A stretch of 64,000 bases of DNA from Rhodothermaeota bacterium MED-G19 (GTDB lineage Bacteria > Bacteroidota > Bacteroidia > Cytophagales > MED-G16): positions 62,001-126,000 of the forward strand of contig NTKI01000001.1 of assembly GCA_002457315.1 (NCBI GenBank), written 5' to 3'. Below the pieces are notes generated by a model. It did no database searches. It was not told the DNA's origin and was given only the letters and a program-made list of their open reading frames with translations. Position 1 is the first letter of the stretch, and each line of letters starts with the position of its first letter. Of this stretch, positions 22,557-33,922 are shown piece after piece. The position numbers and the translations under genes are program-made.

Positions 22557-25500
22557 ATGTTTAGATTTATACTAGTTAGTTTCTTGTTCTTGGCTTCAAA
22601 TGTTTGGGCTCAAGACAGAACTATCTCGGGTACGGTATCATCTGATGAAGACGGAAGTGGTCTTCCTGGTGTTAACGTTATCCTTCAAGGTACAACTGTT
22701 GGTACTACTACAGATGTCAACGGTTCCTATTCACTAGATGTTCCTAGTGACGGAAGTACCTTAGTATTTTCATTTATTGGTTTAGCGTCGCAAGAAATTG
22801 CAATTGGCTCTAGATCAGTGGTGGATGTAGTTATGAGCTCTGATGTTGAAGAACTTCAAGAGGTTGTTGTAACTGCATTGGGTATCACCAAAGAAAAAGC
22901 TGCATTAGGATATGCGGTGACTTCTGTTGGTGGTGAACAGCTTGAAGCTAGACCCGAAGCAGACATAGCTAGGTTGTTGAGAGGTAAAGTTCCTGGTGTT
23001 GATATCACATCGCAAAGTGGTGTCACTGGAACTGGAACTAATATTATTATTAGGGGATATACCTCAATTTCAGGTTCTAATCAGCCTTTATTCGTTTTAG
23101 ATGGTGTGCCAATTGATGCATCAACTTATAGGGATAGAGGTTTTACTGGTGGTGGTGCTACTGCTTCTAGTAGATTCTTAGATCTTGATCCAAACAACGT
23201 AGCGGAAATTAGTGTGCTTAAGGGACTTGCTGCAACCGTACTTTATGGTGAAGCTGGTAGAAATGGTGTGATCCTTATTACAACAAAGACTGGCCAAATT
23301 GGTGGGTCTAATGCTAATAAAGGATTAGAAGTAACATTTAGTCAATCATATTTTGTGAATCAGGTAGCTAGTGTACCAGATGATCAAGATCAGTATGGTA
23401 ACGGATGGCAAAATAGAGCCGCAGCTGCATTTAGTAACTGGGGAGCTCCATTTGACCAACCTAACAGAAACGGTTTGACTGATGGTACTATTAAGCACCC
23501 TTATGACAGAGCCATATGGAATGGTGTATTCCCTCAGTACGTAGGTGCTAGATGGAAATACCAGGCATATGACAATTTACAGAATTTCTTTGTCGACGGT
23601 TCTCAACAAAATACTTCTATTGGTGTCAACGCTCAAGTTGGTTCATCATCAATAAAAGCTAATTATGGTTGGACTAAAGACAACGGATATGTTCCATTCA
23701 ACGATTATAGAAAACATAATTTCTCGTTAGGGGCTAATACTCAGCTTGCAAACGGTTTAAAAATTAATGCTTCATTCAATTATATTGAATCACAAAGTAA
23801 TAAGCCACCTGTAAACCCGAGTAGAAACTCAAACGCTACCAATGTATCATTATTTGGTAATGTTATGTATACTCCTAGAAGTTGGAACTTATTTGGAATG
23901 GAATATGAAAGACCAGATACTCATGGTAGTGTTTATTATAGAGGTAATAACGGGATGCAACATCCTTTATGGACTCTACATAACACTAAGGATAGAGATG
24001 ATGTTAACAGATTTATCGGTAACATCACTTTAAGTTATGAGATAGCTGACTTTTTAAATCTGACGTATAGACTAGGTCTTGATAGAACTAATATGCTAAA
24101 CAACTACATGATTAATAAGAATGGAGTTCAAGGCTATGCTGTTCTTGGCCATTATGCTACGTCCAATAGAAATAATATAAATTATGATCAAGTTGTAAAC
24201 TTAAACGGATCAGTAGAATTATCTGAAGATCTTGATTTTGATTTCTTAGTAGGTGGAAACTTACAGTCTAGAAATTATGAATTATCTCAGATAACTAGTT
24301 CTGATATGTTTATATATAACTTCTTCGATCATCAAAACTTTACAGTGACTAATGCAAATACTTACGTATTAAGAGAAAATACTTATGGTGCATATGCTAA
24401 CCTTACTCTTGGTTATAGAGACTGGGGATTCTTATCAGCATCTGCTAGAAATGACTGGACTTCTACTTTAGAAGAAGCAAACAGATCATTCCTATACCCA
24501 TCTGTATCAGTATCTATTTTACCTTTAGAAGCATTGTCTATTAGCAATCAAAACCTTAACTTCTTGAAAGTTAGATTTGGTTTCGGAACGTCTGCAGGTT
24601 ATCCTCCTCCATATTCTACGAGAGGATCACTTAATACATATACTAAGATTTTCCAAACTTCAGGTGGTGCGTTGTTAAATTCAAATGCTGTAAGTAATTT
24701 CTTTGCTAACCCTGATTTAACTCCTGAGATTCATAAGGAGCTTGAGTTCGGTATTGAAGGTAAATTCTTTCAAAATAAAGTTGGTTTAGACTTGTCGTTA
24801 TTTACTAAAGATTCAGAAGATCTTATTATAGACTTAGATCTTGATGCATCTACTGGTTATACATCATCAACTGTTAACTCAGCATCTATCAATAACAAAG
24901 GGATAGAAGCTATCGTTTCAGTAATTCCTGTTCAGTCGAGAGACTTTACTTGGGAAATAGCTGGACAGTTCTCAATATTGAGAAGTGAGGTACTATCTAT
25001 TGCTGATGGAGTTGATAAAATTTATGTTGGTGGATATACTGGTAGAGGTAATATCGCTATCCCAGGACTACCTTATGGTATAATGGAAGGTGATGTAATC
25101 AAGAGAGACTATGGTAGCCTTGACGGAACTGATCATTTACAGGTTAACTGGGATGATAGATTAAACTATACTCCTATTGTTAACTCAAATGGTGGATATC
25201 AGCAACTTGGTTATGGTGTAATTGGTGATCCAAACCCTGACTATGTTTATGGTGTTACTAATACGTTAACGTATAAGTGGGTAACAGCTAGAGTTCAGTT
25301 CGATTCTTCTGTAGGTGGAGATGTATTCTCTACTACTAGTTCTACTCTACTTGGTAGAGGTATCCTTGAGGAAACAGGTTTTGATAGGTTTGTTCCAATC
25401 GTTACAAAAGGTCTGACAAATGACGGATCTCCTAACGTTAAGCAAACTACTGCAAACGCTCACTACTGGCCAAATACTGGTGTATTCTATGATGAAAACT

Positions 25501-25769
25501 CAATGTATGATGCTTCTGTAATGAGAATAAGAGAGGTTTCTCTTTCTTTAGTTGCGCCTAAGTCGTTCCTTAGTGGAACTCCTTTTGGAAGTGCTAGTTT
25601 AACTATGTCTGCTCAGAACATCTGGCATTATGCATGGAACTTCCCTGCAGGATCAAATTTTGACCCTGAGGTTATAAGTTACGGTGCTGGTTCTAATGCT
25701 AGAGGATGGGATGAGATGACTGGTCCTACTGCTAAGAAGTGGGGAGCTACTTTAAGTTTAACTTTCTAA
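22557..25769 (+). CDS. SusC/RagA-family TonB-linked outer-membrane transporter
   Basis: TonB-dependent receptor of 1070 residues that imports large nutrients together with its SusD lid. After the signal peptide (residues 1-18, ending VWAQ) come a carboxypeptidase-like domain (ISGTVSSDEDGSGLPGVNVI, about 22-100), the SusC linker motif EELQEVVVTALGI (about 98-110), the plug with RLLRGKVPGVDITSQSGVTG and NQPLFVLDGVPID, and a long barrel ending in the aromatic ...WGATLSLTF. No N-terminal STN signalling domain is present, so it probably does not act through an anti-sigma factor. Codon choice differs visibly from most neighbours, with many AAC, TAC, GAC and TTC codons, which suggests high expression. 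susD follows after 19 bp. The substrate is unknown. Confidence 0.95.
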   Translation: MFRFILVSFLFLASNVWAQDRTISGTVSSDEDGSGLPGVNVILQGTTVGTTTDVNGSYSLDVPSDGSTLVFSFIGLASQEIAIGSRSVVDVVMSSDVEELQEVVVTALGITKEKAALGYAVTSVGGEQLEARPEADIARLLRGKVPGVDITSQSGVTGTGTNIIIRGYTSISGSNQPLFVLDGVPIDASTYRDRGFTGGGATASSRFLDLDPNNVAEISVLKGLAATVLYGEAGRNGVILITTKTGQIGGSNANKGLEVTFSQSYFVNQVASVPDDQDQYGNGWQNRAAAAFSNWGAPFDQPNRNGLTDGTIKHPYDRAIWNGVFPQYVGARWKYQAYDNLQNFFVDGSQQNTSIGVNAQVGSSSIKANYGWTKDNGYVPFNDYRKHNFSLGANTQLANGLKINASFNYIESQSNKPPVNPSRNSNATNVSLFGNVMYTPRSWNLFGMEYERPDTHGSVYYRGNNGMQHPLWTLHNTKDRDDVNRFIGNITLSYEIADFLNLTYRLGLDRTNMLNNYMINKNGVQGYAVLGHYATSNRNNINYDQVVNLNGSVELSEDLDFDFLVGGNLQSRNYELSQITSSDMFIYNFFDHQNFTVTNANTYVLRENTYGAYANLTLGYRDWGFLSASARNDWTSTLEEANRSFLYPSVSVSILPLEALSISNQNLNFLKVRFGFGTSAGYPPPYSTRGSLNTYTKIFQTSGGALLNSNAVSNFFANPDLTPEIHKELEFGIEGKFFQNKVGLDLSLFTKDSEDLIIDLDLDASTGYTSSTVNSASINNKGIEAIVSVIPVQSRDFTWEIAGQFSILRSEVLSIADGVDKIYVGGYTGRGNIAIPGLPYGIMEGDVIKRDYGSLDGTDHLQVNWDDRLNYTPIVNSNGGYQQLGYGVIGDPNPDYVYGVTNTLTYKWVTARVQFDSSVGGDVFSTTSSTLLGRGILEETGFDRFVPIVTKGLTNDGSPNVKQTTANAHYWPNTGVFYDENSMYDASVMRIREVSLSLVAPKSFLSGTPFGSASLTMSAQNIWHYAWNFPAGSNFDPEVISYGAGSNARGWDEMTGPTAKKWGATLSLTF

Positions 25770-25788: not shown

Positions 25789-27516
25789 ATGAAAAAATTA
25801 AACAAATTATACTTGATTGTTGCCTTCATGTTTGTTGGCTACTCGTGTGAAATAACTGAATTAGATCAGTTAAATAACCCGAATGCTGTGACTGTTGAGA
25901 ATGCAGGTCTTGATTTATACTGGAATGCTGTTCAGACAAGTTTTGCTGGATGGTGGTACGGAAATCAAACTCCAATGCTCCAAGTAGCTAGAGTTGCGTG
26001 TATGACGTGGGGTGAAACCTATGACAACGCTTATCTATCTTCAAGTTTTAATGGATCTTGGAATACTGTTTATTCTGGACTTGTTCCTGACATCGACGCG
26101 ATGATTGAATCTGGTACTGCTGCTGAATCTTGGATTCACGTAGGTGCTGGTAAAATCTTAAAAGGATATGCTCTTCAAATGCTTGTTGACAAGCACGGTG
26201 CTATTCCTTATAGTGAAGCATGGCAAGGAACTGCTAATCTTAGTCCTGTAGTTGATGATGCAGAATCTGTATACACAGCTGTAGAGGGATTATATGACGA
26301 AGCAATTGCAGATCTTGGTAAAACTGCCATTGGTGCTCCAACTGTGGACATCTACTATGGTGGTGATAAAGCAAAGTGGATAACTTTAGCAAATACTCTT
26401 AAGTTTAGAGCTGCTCTAAACAGAGGTGATGCTGGTAAAATTGCTGCTGCTTTAGCTGCTGGTGTAATAGACGATAAATCTGAAGATTGGGTGTTTAAAT
26501 ACGGAAGTAATAGACAAAACCCAGACTCTAGACACCCATGGTATGGTGGATCGTATGAATCATTTTCTGGTCCATATCAATCTAACTACTACATGTGGGA
26601 GTTAATGGAAGAAAAGGGTATTCCTGATCCAAGACTTAGATACTATTACAAAAGACAAGATTTGAATATTGTAGGTGAAGATTTATTTACAATTGATTGT
26701 GTGATACCTGATACTAGACCAGTATGGTATGATACTCCTTACACAAATGCATATGGTGTTACAGTAACATGGCCTTTCTGTGCAGGAAGTAGTACAACAA
26801 CTATTGATGCTGCTAATGCGAAAGGTTACTGGGGAAGAGACCACGGTAATAACGATGGTACTCCTCCAGATGGTCAGAAAAGAACACACAGAGGGATTTA
26901 TCCAGCTGCTGGTGCTTATGATGACGGTGATGCTGCAACTAACACATTTGGTAGTGGGATTTCTCATACTCAACATGGTGGTGTTGATGGAGGCGGAGGA
27001 GACGGACACGCTCCGATCCTTATGTCTGCTAACGTATACTTCATGAGAGCTGAAGCTGCTCTTGATGGTTTATCTGGTGAAAATGCTAGAGATATGTTAG
27101 AAACAGCGTTAACAACTTCTATTGGTTCTGTAATGAGTTACTCTGCAGGATGGGGTGAAGTTGGTGACTTCAATGGTGACGGAATTGGTGCAATTCCTGA
27201 ACAAAGAAGTATTGACGCTTATGTCAATTATGTATTGAGTGCGTATGATGCCGCATCTGATAATGAAGCAAAGATGAATATCATTGTTAAAGAGCATAGG
27301 CTCGCTTCATTCTCTAACGGTGTCGAATTGTACAATGCTATGAGAAGAACTGGTCATCCAACTGAGATGCAGGGTCCTATGAAGACTCCTGATGCTGGTA
27401 CTTTTCCAAGGTTGTTCCCGTATCCATCAGATTTCTCTAACTTGAACAAAAACGCTCCTGTTAGAACAGATCTTGGTGAGAAAGTTTTCTGGGATAGAGC
27501 TGGTGCATTAAACTAA
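25789..27516 (+). CDS. SusD/RagB-family nutrient-binding lipoprotein
   Basis: Surface lipoprotein of 575 residues that caps the SusC barrel. The lipobox region is FVGYSCEITELDQLNNPN, with the acylated cysteine near residue 20. Helical TPR-like scaffold parts include WIHVGAGKILKGYALQMLVD (about 115-134), KAKWITLANTLKFRAALN and ILMSANVYFMRAEAALDG. The repeated small-residue motif and the GDFNGDGIGA loop (an EF-hand-like calcium loop) near 450 are notable. The overall pattern resembles the SusD-like_2 subgroup, an inference I could not check. The codon style is as well adapted as in susC. The next gene begins 18 bp downstream, so susC, susD and the third lipoprotein form a unit closed by the terminator at 28501. 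Confidence 0.92.
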   Translation: MKKLNKLYLIVAFMFVGYSCEITELDQLNNPNAVTVENAGLDLYWNAVQTSFAGWWYGNQTPMLQVARVACMTWGETYDNAYLSSSFNGSWNTVYSGLVPDIDAMIESGTAAESWIHVGAGKILKGYALQMLVDKHGAIPYSEAWQGTANLSPVVDDAESVYTAVEGLYDEAIADLGKTAIGAPTVDIYYGGDKAKWITLANTLKFRAALNRGDAGKIAAALAAGVIDDKSEDWVFKYGSNRQNPDSRHPWYGGSYESFSGPYQSNYYMWELMEEKGIPDPRLRYYYKRQDLNIVGEDLFTIDCVIPDTRPVWYDTPYTNAYGVTVTWPFCAGSSTTTIDAANAKGYWGRDHGNNDGTPPDGQKRTHRGIYPAAGAYDDGDAATNTFGSGISHTQHGGVDGGGGDGHAPILMSANVYFMRAEAALDGLSGENARDMLETALTTSIGSVMSYSAGWGEVGDFNGDGIGAIPEQRSIDAYVNYVLSAYDAASDNEAKMNIIVKEHRLASFSNGVELYNAMRRTGHPTEMQGPMKTPDAGTFPRLFPYPSDFSNLNKNAPVRTDLGEKVFWDRAGALN

Positions 27517-27534: not shown

Positions 27535-28467
27535 ATGAAAAATTTAAAAAAGTTATTCGTAGCATTCATAGCAATGACAACTGCTATATCATGTGGTGAT
27601 CCTGTTTTACCGGTTGAACTTTTTCCAGAAATGCAATATGGTGCATACGCTAGAAAGATGTCACAGACTGGTAAATTCAATTACTTCGATGTAGCTGGTT
27701 CTTCAATTGACATGCATGTAGAATATTATGATGAAGCTCAGGGTGGAAATATCACTGAGTTTGATATTGATGTAGAATATGTGGACGTTATCGGTGGTGG
27801 CGCTAATAGTGTTGCCAGAACTCAATTCAGAACTATATCTTCGTCAGAATTCGTAAAGAATGCTGATGGATACCTTAGTAATGACATCAGTTTAACTTTT
27901 TCTGCTACTATGGCAGCAGTAGGGAAAGATATTACTGGTATTGATGGCGGTAACTACTTCAGATTTTGGTTTACTATAACTAAGTCTGATGGTACTACTT
28001 ACGATTATAACAATACAGGACCAAACTTACAGTCTTCTAATGCATTTGGTGCATTATATAGACTTAACGTTTCTGTCGTGTGTCCTTCTGACCTTGAGTC
28101 AAGTTGGGACGCAGTAAGTGTTGGACAAGGTGGATGGGGTTGTACTGCAACTTCAAACTACTCTGGTTCTTGGGTTAAATCTGGTGGTGACAACTTATAT
28201 ATAGAGCCTGCTGGTCAGTTTGACTGGGGAATCTATTTAGCTTGTTACGGAGCCGGTTCAACTAATCCAGGTGGAACACTTAAAGTACAAGATGCTTGTG
28301 GTATTTTATCACCAGTAGGTGCTTCTAGATGGTCAGAAGTTTATACATTTCATGATGTTAGCTCAACAGGTAATGCGCTAACTATTGATTGGACTAATGA
28401 CTATGGTGAAGGTGCCGTTTCTGTACTTACCAGAAATGATGGACAGAATTGGCCTGACTTGAACTAA
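27535..28467 (+). CDS. Putative surface lipoprotein of the SusCD locus (function unknown)
   Basis: The 310-residue protein has a lipoprotein signal peptide ending AMTTAISCGDPVLP, with the acylated cysteine near residue 20. I recognise no domain. The first half looks like beta-sandwich sequence (YGAYARKMSQTGKFNYFDV, about 38-56). The second half holds four further cysteines (VVCPSDLES, GWGCTATS, YLACYGAG, QDACGIL), enough for two disulfides and suggesting a compact secreted domain. Proteins in this third position of SusCD operons are usually surface ligand-binding lipoproteins (SusE/SGBP-like), so that role is inferred from place, signal and codon use, not from sequence similarity. It is 18 bp after susD and is followed by a strong terminator. 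Confidence 0.8.
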   Translation: MKNLKKLFVAFIAMTTAISCGDPVLPVELFPEMQYGAYARKMSQTGKFNYFDVAGSSIDMHVEYYDEAQGGNITEFDIDVEYVDVIGGGANSVARTQFRTISSSEFVKNADGYLSNDISLTFSATMAAVGKDITGIDGGNYFRFWFTITKSDGTTYDYNNTGPNLQSSNAFGALYRLNVSVVCPSDLESSWDAVSVGQGGWGCTATSNYSGSWVKSGGDNLYIEPAGQFDWGIYLACYGAGSTNPGGTLKVQDACGILSPVGASRWSEVYTFHDVSSTGNALTIDWTNDYGEGAVSVLTRNDGQNWPDLN

Positions 28468-28500: not shown

Positions 28501-28535
28501 AAAGGGTAACGGCGTAAGTCGTTACCTTTTTTTTT
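28501..28535 (+). terminator. Strong rho-independent terminator after the SusCD-lipoprotein unit
   Basis: A 7-bp GC-containing stem GGTAACG (28505-28511) / CGTTACC (28520-28526) with an 8-nt loop is flanked by AAAG and followed by nine T residues (28527-28535). Extra A-T pairing extends the stem. The next ATG is only 17 bp beyond the T-run. Confidence 0.9.
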
Positions 28536-28551: not shown

Positions 28552-31500
28552 ATGAAAAAATATCTTATTTTTTTTATTTTACTCGCTACTAAATACCCAT
28601 TATTCTCACAACTATATTTCAATGAGATATCTTCATCTCTTGATTTCAATCATTCATATCTTCAAGGAGTTTCAGGTGCTGGTGTAAGTTTTGTTGACTT
28701 TGATCTAGACGGGTTAGATGATATAACAATACCGACGAATGGAAATACTTCCATACTTTTTTTAAAAAATAATGGAGACAAATTATATCCTTTGTCTTTT
28801 GGCATTGACTTTCCTTATCAAATAAAGCAAGTACTTTGGATTGATTTTGATAATGATTTTGATAAAGACTTGTATGTTTCTTCATTTAGTGGTAAAAATA
28901 AACTTTATGAGAACAATGGATTTCTTAATTTTATTGATATAACGTCTTCTGTTAATTTACCAGATTCTGTTTCAAACTCTTTTGGTTCCTCATGGTCTGA
29001 TATTAATAATGATGGATACCTAGATTTATTGCAGACATACAGGTCAGGAGATAGTATAAATAATACTGTAAGTTTATACTTAAACCATGAAGGAAAATCT
29101 TTTATTGATATAACTAACATTTCATCTATTTCAGAGATTAACAAGTTACCTTTCTGTGCTACTTTTATAGATATAGATAATAATAATGTCCAAGATCTTT
29201 ACATTGCTAATGATAAGTCTTCTGGGAACTCCCTTTACTACAATAATTTAGATTCTACTTTTTCAAATATAAGTACTCAGTCTAATACTGGTGTTAAGAT
29301 GGATGCTATGTCAGTGACGGTAGGAGACTTTAATAATGATTCTTTTTTTGATATCTATTCTACAAATTTAGAAGAAGGAAATAAGTTATTTGTAAATAAT
29401 CAAGATCTTACTTTTACAGAACGTGCTGATGAAAAAGGAGTCCCTTTTAATGCTGAGGGATGGGGAGCTCAGTTTGAAGATTTTGATTTAGATGGGTATG
29501 AGGACCTTTATGTAAGTGGGTCTCTTGTTGGGTCTAATGTGAATTCTAGTGCGTATTATTCAAATATTTTTGGAAAATATTTTGAGAAAAATATTTCAGT
29601 AGGCTTAGATTCTGATACTGTATCTAGTTATGGGAATGCAGTAGGAGACATAAATAATGATGGTTATCCTGATATTCTAGTATTAAACATGGAGCCTTTT
29701 AATTCCTTCCTTTTTAAAAATATTTACTCTGGAACTAATAACTGGCTAAAAGTTAATTTAGTTGGTTTCAACTCAAATAGTGATGCGTATGGATCAAGGG
29801 TAGTTATTTATGTTGAAGATAAAACTATAACACGCGGTAAATTTTCTACAGAGGGTTACCTTTCACAGAACTCTAATACTTTATTTATTGGTCTTGGCAA
29901 CAGCCAAACAGTTGATAGTTTAAAAGTGTATTGGCCATCTGGAGAGATTGATGCTTTTTATCAAATAGAAGGAAATAGATTGATCACTATAAACGAGGGC
30001 TCTACTTCTTTAATTCCAAAGATATATTCAGTTAGTGATTCTTTTTGTGATGGAAGTCTGTTATCCTTAGAGACTGGTTACTATCATAGATACCAATGGT
30101 CTACAGGAGATACAACTCAAAATATAAGTATTAGTCAAGGTGGAAATTATTTTGTTAATGTTTATGATGAATACGGTGCTATGTTCTCTTCTGATACTAT
30201 AATAATTGAAAAAACATCTCCCCCAGATTTTGATGTTATTGTCAAAAATATTACGAACCAGCACACTAGCTCAATTCAGATAAATAACATCAACTTAGAT
30301 AATGATTATTATTTATCATTAGACGGAGGAACATACTTTAAAAATAAATTTATATTTTCTAATATAAGTTCAGGTACACACTCAATCACTGTAAGAGATG
30401 AAAAAGGATGTCACTTAACTAAAACATTTGAGATTAAAAATCTACTTAAAAATTCAGGAAACAGTGACTTTACTAGTCAGTCTATTGCGAGAAAATGGAT
30501 GGAAGTGTTATTACAAGCAATTAGGGATGATTTAGCAAGACCACCTATTCATGCTAGAAACTTGTTTCACCTTTCTTCAGTAATGTATGATGCATTTGTT
30601 ATCAAGGAAAAATTAATTAATAATAAAAATATAACTCCTTTTTTACTCGATAAAACTATTAATGAAACTAACTATCCTTTTGAATACCCTACATATGTTC
30701 ATGATGATGAATATATAGAAAAAATCATTTCTTATGCTTCATATAATTTCATAAGACACAGATTTAAAAAATCAGTTGGTATAATTGATACTTATAAAAG
30801 AGTAGACTCACTCATGATAACATTAGATTATGATATCAATTATGATAAGTTAGATTATTTGTCAGGTGACCCAAGATCTATAGGGAATTATTTAAATAAA
30901 ATATATTCAGATTATGGATTTCTTGATAATTCAAATGAGGTAAATGATTACTCGAGTAACTATTATTCACCGCTTAATCCGCCACTTGATTTAGATACTT
31001 ATGGTAACCCTGACATTATAGATCCTAATAGATGGCAACCACTAAAGATTTCAAATTTTATTGATCAGTCAGGAAACTTAATTGAGGGGATTCCTGAATT
31101 TATTTCCCCAGAATGGGGAAACGTGACACCTTTTGCTCTCAAAGAAGAAGACTTAGTTATTAAGTTGAGAGATGATAATATCTATAAAATTTATCATGAT
31201 CCTGGGCCACCGCCTCTTCTTGACACCTTAAATCAAGGTAAATTAGATTCCTTATTTAAAAATTCATTTTCTATGGTGTCAGTTTGGGGGGCTCATCTTG
31301 ATAGGTCTGACGGGGTTCTTTTAGATATATCTCCTAATTCGATTGGAAACTTAACTTCTTACCCTAATGATTTTTTAGACTACCATAATCTATATAATTA
31401 TTTTGATGGTGGAGATATAGGTCTTGGACATGAGATAAATCCCTTTAATAACCAGAAATACACAGAACAAATTGTGCCAAGGGGTGATTACACAAGAGTT

Positions 31501-32622
31501 CTTGCTGAATTCTGGGCTGATGGACCTGATTCCGAGACACCTCCTGGACATTGGTTTGTAATATTAAATGAAGTAAATGATGATGATGATCTAATAAGAA
31601 AATTTAAGGGAACAGGACAAGAGTTAGATAGACTTGATTGGGATATAAAATCTTATTTTTTAATGGGTGGAGCTATGCATGATGCTGCAATTTCTGCGTG
31701 GGGATCAAAAGGATATTATGATTATGCTAGGCCAATTTCTGTTATCAGATATTTATCTGAAAATGGGCAGTCTACTTATAAAGATTCAACAAATTACAGC
31801 CCAAATGGGTTCCCTTTAATTGATGGATATATAGAAATGGTTTCAATCAATGACCCTCTAGTTGGAGATAATAATAAGAATTTAGGAAAAGTTAAATTAT
31901 TCACTTGGAAAGGATTTAATGAAGCTGATTCTACTGATGTCGAGAAAGGAGTTGGGTGGATACTTGCAGAAAATTGGTGGCCATATCAAAGACCAAGTTT
32001 TGTTACTCCTCCATTTGCAGGATATATTTCAGGGCATTCAACATACTCTAGTGCAGCTGCAACAATATTAGAAAAATTAACTGGAAATGAATTCTTTCCA
32101 GGTGGAATTGGAGAATTTATCATCCCTAAAAATAATTTTCTTGTCTTTGAGAAAGGACCCTCTGTTGATATGAAATTACAGTGGGCAACATACAGAGATG
32201 CTGCTGATCAATGTTCTCTTTCTCGTATTTGGGGAGGAATTCATCCTTATATCGATGATATCCCTGGCAGAATAATGGGTAAGAATATAGGTGAAGACGC
32301 TTTTGCAAAGGGGCAACTTTTATTTGAAGAGAAAAGTATTGTAGCAGGAAATGAATTTATAGATAATATAGTATCTGTGTACCCTAATCCCTTACCTCCA
32401 AATAGAAATTTAATTGTACTAAACGAAACTTCTAAAAATATTGATAGAATAGAATTCTTTAATTTATCAGGTGAAATTATTTTTTCTAAGAATATTAATG
32501 ATAACCATAAAAAAATTATATTAAAACTTAATAATTTAGCTGTTGGTATTCATTTACTTTTGATCCATTTTGAAGATGGCTCAGCAAGATCTACTAAAAT
32601 TATTTTAAATGATGATTTCTAA
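28552..32622 (+). CDS. FG-GAP/ASPIC propeller fused to a vanadium haloperoxidase-type domain, T9SS cargo
   Basis: A secreted giant of 1356 residues. A signal peptide (ending PLFSQ, about 1-20) precedes FG-GAP/VCBS propeller repeats with calcium loops such as DFDLDGLDD, DINNDGYLD, DFNNDSFFD and DINNDGYPD (about 25-390). An ASPIC/UnbV segment (DSLKVYWPSGEIDAF, near 460) and an Ig-like region (YQWSTGDTTQNISISQGGNY, near 520) follow. The C-terminal half is a vanadium-dependent haloperoxidase/PAP2 domain with the complete vanadate site: K1053-x6-R1060-P, S1160-G-H1162, and S1224-R1225-x5-H1231-x3-D1235. It ends with a T9SS type A sorting domain (VSVYPNPLPPNRNLIVLN and the last 75 residues). Family members oxidise halides with H2O2 or act as phosphatases; which applies is unknown. 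The ATG at 28552 is chosen because the upstream in-frame TTG at 28534 lies inside the terminator. It overlaps the next gene by 14 bp. Confidence 0.9.
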   Translation: MKKYLIFFILLATKYPLFSQLYFNEISSSLDFNHSYLQGVSGAGVSFVDFDLDGLDDITIPTNGNTSILFLKNNGDKLYPLSFGIDFPYQIKQVLWIDFDNDFDKDLYVSSFSGKNKLYENNGFLNFIDITSSVNLPDSVSNSFGSSWSDINNDGYLDLLQTYRSGDSINNTVSLYLNHEGKSFIDITNISSISEINKLPFCATFIDIDNNNVQDLYIANDKSSGNSLYYNNLDSTFSNISTQSNTGVKMDAMSVTVGDFNNDSFFDIYSTNLEEGNKLFVNNQDLTFTERADEKGVPFNAEGWGAQFEDFDLDGYEDLYVSGSLVGSNVNSSAYYSNIFGKYFEKNISVGLDSDTVSSYGNAVGDINNDGYPDILVLNMEPFNSFLFKNIYSGTNNWLKVNLVGFNSNSDAYGSRVVIYVEDKTITRGKFSTEGYLSQNSNTLFIGLGNSQTVDSLKVYWPSGEIDAFYQIEGNRLITINEGSTSLIPKIYSVSDSFCDGSLLSLETGYYHRYQWSTGDTTQNISISQGGNYFVNVYDEYGAMFSSDTIIIEKTSPPDFDVIVKNITNQHTSSIQINNINLDNDYYLSLDGGTYFKNKFIFSNISSGTHSITVRDEKGCHLTKTFEIKNLLKNSGNSDFTSQSIARKWMEVLLQAIRDDLARPPIHARNLFHLSSVMYDAFVIKEKLINNKNITPFLLDKTINETNYPFEYPTYVHDDEYIEKIISYASYNFIRHRFKKSVGIIDTYKRVDSLMITLDYDINYDKLDYLSGDPRSIGNYLNKIYSDYGFLDNSNEVNDYSSNYYSPLNPPLDLDTYGNPDIIDPNRWQPLKISNFIDQSGNLIEGIPEFISPEWGNVTPFALKEEDLVIKLRDDNIYKIYHDPGPPPLLDTLNQGKLDSLFKNSFSMVSVWGAHLDRSDGVLLDISPNSIGNLTSYPNDFLDYHNLYNYFDGGDIGLGHEINPFNNQKYTEQIVPRGDYTRVLAEFWADGPDSETPPGHWFVILNEVNDDDDLIRKFKGTGQELDRLDWDIKSYFLMGGAMHDAAISAWGSKGYYDYARPISVIRYLSENGQSTYKDSTNYSPNGFPLIDGYIEMVSINDPLVGDNNKNLGKVKLFTWKGFNEADSTDVEKGVGWILAENWWPYQRPSFVTPPFAGYISGHSTYSSAAATILEKLTGNEFFPGGIGEFIIPKNNFLVFEKGPSVDMKLQWATYRDAADQCSLSRIWGGIHPYIDDIPGRIMGKNIGEDAFAKGQLLFEEKSIVAGNEFIDNIVSVYPNPLPPNRNLIVLNETSKNIDRIEFFNLSGEIIFSKNINDNHKKIILKLNNLAVGIHLLLIHFEDGSARSTKIILNDDF

Positions 32623-33922
32623 AAACTATTCATTTCTTATTTTATTTCTAGTAATATCTTGCTCTAAAAAAAATAATTTCAGTCAGGTCTCAGTTGATTT
32701 ACCAGGTTACAATCATTCAAAATATCATGTGAACTTTAAAACAGATTTTAATACATCAACAAACATCTCATATTGGTTAGATCAAAATGAGGTTATTTCC
32801 TCTTTGACTTATCAGGGAGATTCTTTTGATATAGTATTACCTTATCTAAAACCATCATCCAATTATTTGTTTAAAATAAATGAATTTTCAAAATCAGAAA
32901 ATATTAATTCTTCTATTTTATATTCATTTAAGACAAGAAGTCTACCAAATGTTTTTCCTTCTTTTGATTTAGTAAAAGACTCTTCATTTTCTTTTGATGG
33001 TTTTCTTTTGTTTAGAACTCAAGAAGATCCTGGTATTCAGTTTATGATGGATGATGATGGCGAAATTGTATGGTATAGTATTAGTGATTCAGTCTTATCT
33101 AGACCATTTAATATAGGATTAAAAAACACTTATATTTCCTTATCAAAGAGAAATATTATTAATGAAGTAAGCTTTGAAGGTGACACATTATTTTCAAAAA
33201 TTTCTAACTCACATAGTTTTCACCATGATATTTTAAAATTTAGTGAAAACAAAAAATCATATTTTGTTGGCCTTACATATGAATACTATAATTATTATAA
33301 AAATGGAATTGATTCCTTAATGGGTGATGGGATTGTTGTATATGATGAAAATGGCGAGAAAATATGGAGATGGAATATTTTTGATCATATAGAACCGGAT
33401 AGAGAACAATATTTAATCCGTGATGATTGGAGTCATGGAAATGGAATTGATATAGATTCTGATGGGAATTATCTTATTTCATTTAGAAATTTTGATCAAA
33501 TTTGGAAAATTAATTCTATTAGTGGAGATGTAATGTGGAGACTAGGAAAAGGAGGTGATTTTAATTTAGATAATAAAGATGTTTTCTATCAACAACATGC
33601 AATACATAAGGTTAACAAAAGTCAATATATGCTCTTTGATAATGGGTCGTCAGAATATAGGAAGTCATCACGAGCTCTTGTTTTCTCTTTAGATGAGATA
33701 AATAAAAAATTTAATCATGAAAAGAGTGTGTTCCTGCCAGATAACTTATTTACTTTCAAGCAGGGTAGTGTTTACTTAATTGATGATGAAAATTATCTTT
33801 TTTCAAGTTCAGTAAATAATAAAACAATAATATCTGATAGTTCAGGAAAAATTTTATGGAATTTATCAAGTGATCATTCATTTTATAGAGTATATTATAT
33901 TGACAATAAAAAGTTATTGTAA
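32609..33922 (+). CDS. Arylsulfotransferase (ASST)-like lipoprotein
   Basis: The 437-residue protein has a lipoprotein signal (LILFLVISCSKKN, cysteine near residue 19). The N-terminal beta-sandwich ends around residue 110 (SILYSFKTRSLPN). A propeller of the arylsulfate sulfotransferase family follows: FMMDDDGEIVWYSI, SHSFHHDILKF, DWSHGNGIDIDSDGNYLIS (about 273-291), IWKINSISGDVMWRLGKGG, QHAIHKVNKSQYMLFDNGSS (about 331-350) and SRALVFSLDE. These His- and Arg-bearing motifs correspond to the regions that hold the catalytic histidines of ASST, which moves sulfate between phenols without PAPS. A non-enzymatic propeller of the same fold is possible. It overlaps the haloperoxidase gene by 14 bp, which implies joint translation. 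Confidence 0.82.
   Translation: MMISKNYSFLILFLVISCSKKNNFSQVSVDLPGYNHSKYHVNFKTDFNTSTNISYWLDQNEVISSLTYQGDSFDIVLPYLKPSSNYLFKINEFSKSENINSSILYSFKTRSLPNVFPSFDLVKDSSFSFDGFLLFRTQEDPGIQFMMDDDGEIVWYSISDSVLSRPFNIGLKNTYISLSKRNIINEVSFEGDTLFSKISNSHSFHHDILKFSENKKSYFVGLTYEYYNYYKNGIDSLMGDGIVVYDENGEKIWRWNIFDHIEPDREQYLIRDDWSHGNGIDIDSDGNYLISFRNFDQIWKINSISGDVMWRLGKGGDFNLDNKDVFYQQHAIHKVNKSQYMLFDNGSSEYRKSSRALVFSLDEINKKFNHEKSVFLPDNLFTFKQGSVYLIDDENYLFSSSVNNKTIISDSSGKILWNLSSDHSFYRVYYIDNKKLL

Follow-up and report, generated by a model that had tools for sequence, protein, structure and literature searches.

Marine vanadium haloperoxidases (vHPOs) may give rise to organohalogens and reactive halogen, and the residues with which they hold vanadate form a ligand set common to vHPOs and acid phosphatases. 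The characterised enzymes nearest to the domain described here show only 13-17% identity to it in fold alignments. NapH1 (3w36), XhnO11 (9l8x) and NapH3 (8cxl) share its two-bundle fold throughout (TM-score by target 0.70-0.75), as well as its K-x6-RP and SR-x5-H motifs, but at 15-17% identity, and they are about 100-150 residues shorter and have neither a propeller nor a type IX secretion (T9SS) tail. The vanadium iodoperoxidase of Zobellia galactanivorans (4cit, 4usz), also from the marine Bacteroidota, has the same fold and the motifs W-x2-K-x6-RP, F-x4-SGH and SR-x5-H but belongs to a separate, shorter class of about 450 aa, while the Curvularia inaequalis chloroperoxidase (1vnc, 1vni) shares the fold, the ligand set and the Pfam domain VCPO_2nd at 13-14% identity. 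Mouse CRTAC1 (9etn) and bacterial CRTAC1-like or ASPIC proteins are built from an FG-GAP propeller followed by an ASPIC domain. Within the coverage of a full-text literature search, from which subscription journals are mostly absent, no paper named haloperoxidase together with CRTAC1, or vanadium haloperoxidase together with FG-GAP.

Here we describe a gene of Rhodothermaeota bacterium MED-G19 that joins these two kinds of protein in one polypeptide. It lies in the window, by which we mean the whole stretch of 64,000 nucleotides that was analysed, where the frame 28552-32622 runs on the forward strand without an internal stop and encodes the single chain of 1356 aa that the first-pass annotation had proposed. 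A TTG at 28534 provides a longer alternative start, but it is with the ATG at 28552 that a signal-like sequence begins. The features of the gene are:

28552..32622, + strand: fusion protein of 1356 aa, propeller-ASPIC-linker-vHPO-T9SS tail (translation, Pfam, NCBIfam)
28552..28611, + strand: N-terminus resembling a Sec signal peptide, MKKYLIFFILLATKYPLFSQ (by eye from the sequence)
28615..29736, + strand: FG-GAP propeller with seven calcium-loop motifs (Pfam, model, fold search, motif count)
29785..29985, + strand: ASPIC/UnbV domain, residues 412-478 (Pfam UnbV_ASPIC, 1.6e-15)
30007..30468, + strand: Ig/PKD-like linker, residues about 486-639, of low model confidence (model, PKD_6 in homologues)
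30469..32337, + strand: vanadium-haloperoxidase domain, residues about 640-1262 (profiles, model, fold search)
31708..31734, + strand: vanadate-ligand motif K1053-x6-R1060-P1061 (translation, 74-homologue alignment)
32029..32037, + strand: motif S1160-G1161-H1162 (translation, 74-homologue alignment)
32221..32256, + strand: motif S1224-R1225-x5-H1231-x3-D1235 (translation, 74-homologue alignment)
32377..32607, + strand: type A T9SS C-terminal sorting domain, residues 1276-1352 (Pfam, NCBIfam)

The domain assignment of the first-pass annotation, its full ligand set and its view of the protein as T9SS cargo all hold up. Five stretches of the N-terminal part match FG-GAP_3 (1.5e-25), and the seven calcium-loop motifs, at residues 49, 98, 150, 207, 259, 310 and 366, follow each other at 49-57 residues, a spacing that fits a seven-bladed propeller. 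In the N-terminal model the propeller and the ASPIC domain are good, with most of their ten-residue blocks scoring above 80, whereas the linker is poor. Among solved structures this model comes closest to mouse CRTAC1 (E 8e-27 over 511 columns), and the arrangement of an FG-GAP propeller leading directly into UnbV_ASPIC is that of CRTAC1-like proteins, with the difference that mouse CRTAC1 has no enzyme attached. An Ig-like part had been proposed for the 150 residues that follow; this linker has no Pfam match in the window protein itself, although PKD_6 is matched in 23 of 34 homologous N-terminal parts.

The C-terminal domain of about 620 residues, modelled as residues 633-1271 from 74 sequences, gave a confident structure (pLDDT 89.9, pTM 0.92) with the two helical bundles of the vHPO fold. 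A Foldseek search of the PDB returned 21 matches at E<=0.001, every one of them a vHPO or vHPO homologue; the top matches were NapH1 (1.3e-16), XhnO11, NapH3 and the Zobellia iodoperoxidase and Curvularia chloroperoxidase that had been suggested for superposition, and the Ascophyllum and Acaryochloris enzymes were also found. The vanadate ligand residues K, R, SGH, R and H are all present at the positions first proposed and, apart from one X, are invariant in the 74 homologues. In the vHPO profile alignments, NapH1, NapH3 and XhnO11 line up at K-x6-RP and SR-x5-H, and the Zobellia enzyme lines up at all three motifs; from these alignments and the fold match it is very likely that the ligand residues share one predicted pocket. 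VCPO_2nd is matched in 74 of 74 homologues (in the fusion protein at 3.2e-6, barely above its cut-off) and DUF6851 in 73. The protein lies outside the Zobellia-type iodoperoxidase subfamily, aligning with 4cit only locally (6e-5).

Two further remarks on the motifs fared less well. The isoleucine before SGH had been singled out as a departure from PSGH; it is not unusual, since this position is V, I or L in all 74 homologues and T in the Zobellia iodoperoxidase. The spacers between the motifs are indeed long (107 residues from K to S, 65 from S to R), but length alone does not divide haloperoxidases from phosphatases, and it is the fold match that separates them. We also considered reading halide specificity from the Trp at position -3 relative to the Lys and the Phe at -5 relative to the Ser, and rejected this because both are kept in the Zobellia iodoperoxidase and so are not a sign of chloride oxidation.

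A vHPO-type active site is well supported, and an active enzyme is likely. Halide oxidation is likely too, by analogy with the family. NapH3, however, is one of the vHPO homologues, and the reaction described for it is an alpha-hydroxyketone rearrangement, so that an intact ligand set alone is no proof of halide oxidation. The fusion protein might accordingly be an enzyme of vHPO fold that no longer oxidises halides, either NapH3-like or a vanadate-inhibitable phosphatase, with its substrate held by the propeller. We consider this unlikely. In its favour, the best fold matches include NapH3 and NapH1, the ligand set is shared with acid phosphatases, 3bb0 (a phosphate intermediate trapped in apochloroperoxidase) is among the matches, and PAP2 is weakly matched in 15 of the 74 homologues. 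Against this, the whole domain matches vHPOs whereas single-bundle acid phosphatases align over only about 110 columns at E>=0.2, the window protein itself has no PAP2 match in Pfam, and the ligand residues are invariant across phyla.

The T9SS export signal is well supported. The tail matches Por_Secre_tail (1.7e-5, Pfam) and TIGR04183 (29.4 bits against a cut-off of 23, NCBIfam), and SprA was found in the same genome, which bears out the sorting domain first noticed in the sequence. We therefore favour, as the probable explanation, a vanadate-dependent enzyme of haloperoxidase type that is exported by the T9SS to the cell surface or released, with the propeller holding a surface or substrate. 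The C-terminal two-bundle domain would bind vanadate through K1053, R1060, S1160, G1161, R1225 and H1231, with H1162 as acid-base, and would use H2O2 to convert halide to a hypohalous-acid-type oxidant. The CRTAC1-like propeller, stabilised by calcium, and the ASPIC domain would anchor the enzyme on the surface or on the organic substrate being oxidised or halogenated; the fold of the propeller and its repeated pairing with vHPOs point to such a task. The level of the Zobellia iodoperoxidase gene vIPO3 is higher with Ascophyllum nodosum than with alginate (PMC9296495), a finding which, though made outside the class described here, fits a vHPO role of marine Bacteroidota at algal surfaces.

The genes next to the fusion are:

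22557..25769, + strand: SusC/RagA outer-membrane transporter, same locus (TIGR04056, 5.8e-155)
25789..27516, + strand: SusD-like lipoprotein, same locus (PF12771, 3.9e-37)
27535..28467, + strand: 310-aa lipoprotein-like protein with no confident family, its position kept in relatives (Pfam, relatives' loci)
32609..33922, + strand: arylsulfotransferase-like lipoprotein whose start overlaps the fusion stop by 14 bases (Pfam)

The adjoining SusC/SusD pair could import the products. The SusC cluster is present in 12 loci, and since SusC is recognised in some loci only, such uptake may not be general. Further downstream lie a chromate-transporter-family gene and a sulfotransferase-family gene. The downstream order is kept in four related loci (L037, L038, L039 and L042), and the upstream genes are kept in L037, partly in L038, and in L041. 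The overlap of the arylsulfotransferase-like gene with the fusion stop, together with its position after the fusion in four relatives, raises the question of whether the locus handles phenolic or aryl-sulfate compounds, the vHPO halogenating or coupling phenols and the neighbour moving sulfate. This appears improbable: the neighbour occurs in five loci, all within the window protein's own taxonomic family, and among the locus gene clusters no fusion of another group has it alongside. The sulfotransferase activity of this neighbour, moreover, is read from family membership; its best solved relative is 9kf4, a structure named sulfotransferase.

A survey of 59 relatives found the fusion in a further three members of the genus and in one other genome of the same family (G013), while two (G029, G045) have a vHPO domain without a propeller. 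The matches in G013, on three contigs (L040, L041, L042), were first taken as one broken gene, but the propeller scores fit two fusion genes, one apparently divided between contigs. When 84,980 species genomes were scanned for the vHPO domain, at least 574 relatives of it came up, and the best 80 loci were kept (L052-L131). Of the 82 long-class vHPO genes in these loci, 49 are fused to a propeller, 29 have no propeller within 1.5 kb (including L073, cut by a contig end and left out of later tree tests) and four are classed as split pairs, proportions that describe the best-scoring loci and are not prevalences. In three of the split pairs (L075, L076, L092) the two genes lie on the same strand at most 81 bp apart; in the fourth (L127) the propeller is 1 kb off on the opposite strand. 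The vHPO domain, fused or not, is held by 40 of 395 genomes drawn from the class. The proposed domain-architecture search has thus found the same fusion in other genomes, in both Bacteroidota and Gammaproteobacteria; these carriers rule out a peculiarity of one genome, and the union of propeller and vHPO appears common in marine bacteria.

In the vHPO tree the fused genes form two groups, one of Bacteroidota and one of Gammaproteobacteria. Enforcing a single fused clade gave an AU p of 0.052 on the quick tree, which has 88 rows. On the careful tree, whose 59 rows were picked after the first tree was seen, a single clade was rejected at p 0.0006; the counts cannot distinguish gain from loss. 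The linkers of the two groups differ in sequence and in length (79-102 aa in one, 119-156 aa in the other). Because one fused clade is rejected and the linkers differ, the fusion probably arose twice, two separate events being the simplest reading. The Gammaproteobacteria fusions stop 3-16 residues past the vHPO domain and have no T9SS tail. Within the trees, the window group is placed beside L105/L108 by the vHPO domain, a grouping that the propeller tree rejects (p 0.0003); we do not claim a propeller swap between them, since a vHPO tree constrained to keep the window group together with Snuella L053 is not rejected either.

The genome has a second vHPO locus (L011:2822-19150, contig C25), with a SusC gene, a protein of 519 aa in the place of SusD, three CRTAC1-like proteins each about 1094 aa long, a 188-aa protein and a vHPO of 450 aa (P0002) that aligns end to end with the Zobellia iodoperoxidase 4cit (E 2.8e-157). 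All four ASPIC matches of the genome fall within its two vHPO loci. Among short-class vHPO genes (29 relatives), 14 of 27 have an ASPIC match about 1.5-1.9 kb away, as a raw count. Four genus members without ASPIC (G002, G003, G004, G008) likewise lack a vHPO match; in G011, which also lacks one, two ASPIC genes lie at a contig edge. From the adjacent unfused pairs and the placing of all four ASPIC genes, propeller and vHPO are, on genomic grounds, recurrent partners.

We put forward tentatively, at a little under even chances, that CRTAC1-like propellers serve in general as partner subunits of bacterial surface vHPOs, bringing substrate to the enzyme or placing it, across two distant vHPO classes and joined in one polypeptide at least twice. 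If so, bacterial CRTAC1-like proteins gain a biochemical context, and, were the propeller a dedicated partner, a large number of surface proteins that are now unassigned would gain a testable role. The enzyme can do without the propeller, since many homologues have none in the gene or nearby (32 stand-alone vHPO ORFs, two of them cut by contig ends), which would suit a propeller that is a passive adhesion or display module, paired for localisation only, with the vHPO acting on any nearby organic matter or just removing H2O2. This seems to us somewhat unlikely, as the probable double joining of the same propeller type, and its encoding beside a second, distant vHPO class, argue for a more specific role.

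Other layouts were seen among the wider loci. Tamlana nanhaiensis has two full fusion genes in tandem with an 11-base overlap (L095:7078-15157), and L081:5566-10848 encodes a 1760-aa fusion whose propeller match extends over about 960 residues, perhaps two propellers. In a 1162-aa vHPO (L069:7663-11151) the N-terminal partner is a different one, about 447 residues long and matched by neither propeller query, and the vHPO genes at L100:4438-12132, L111:2380-5343 and L125:1906-5022 bear C-terminal extensions of 340-660 residues.
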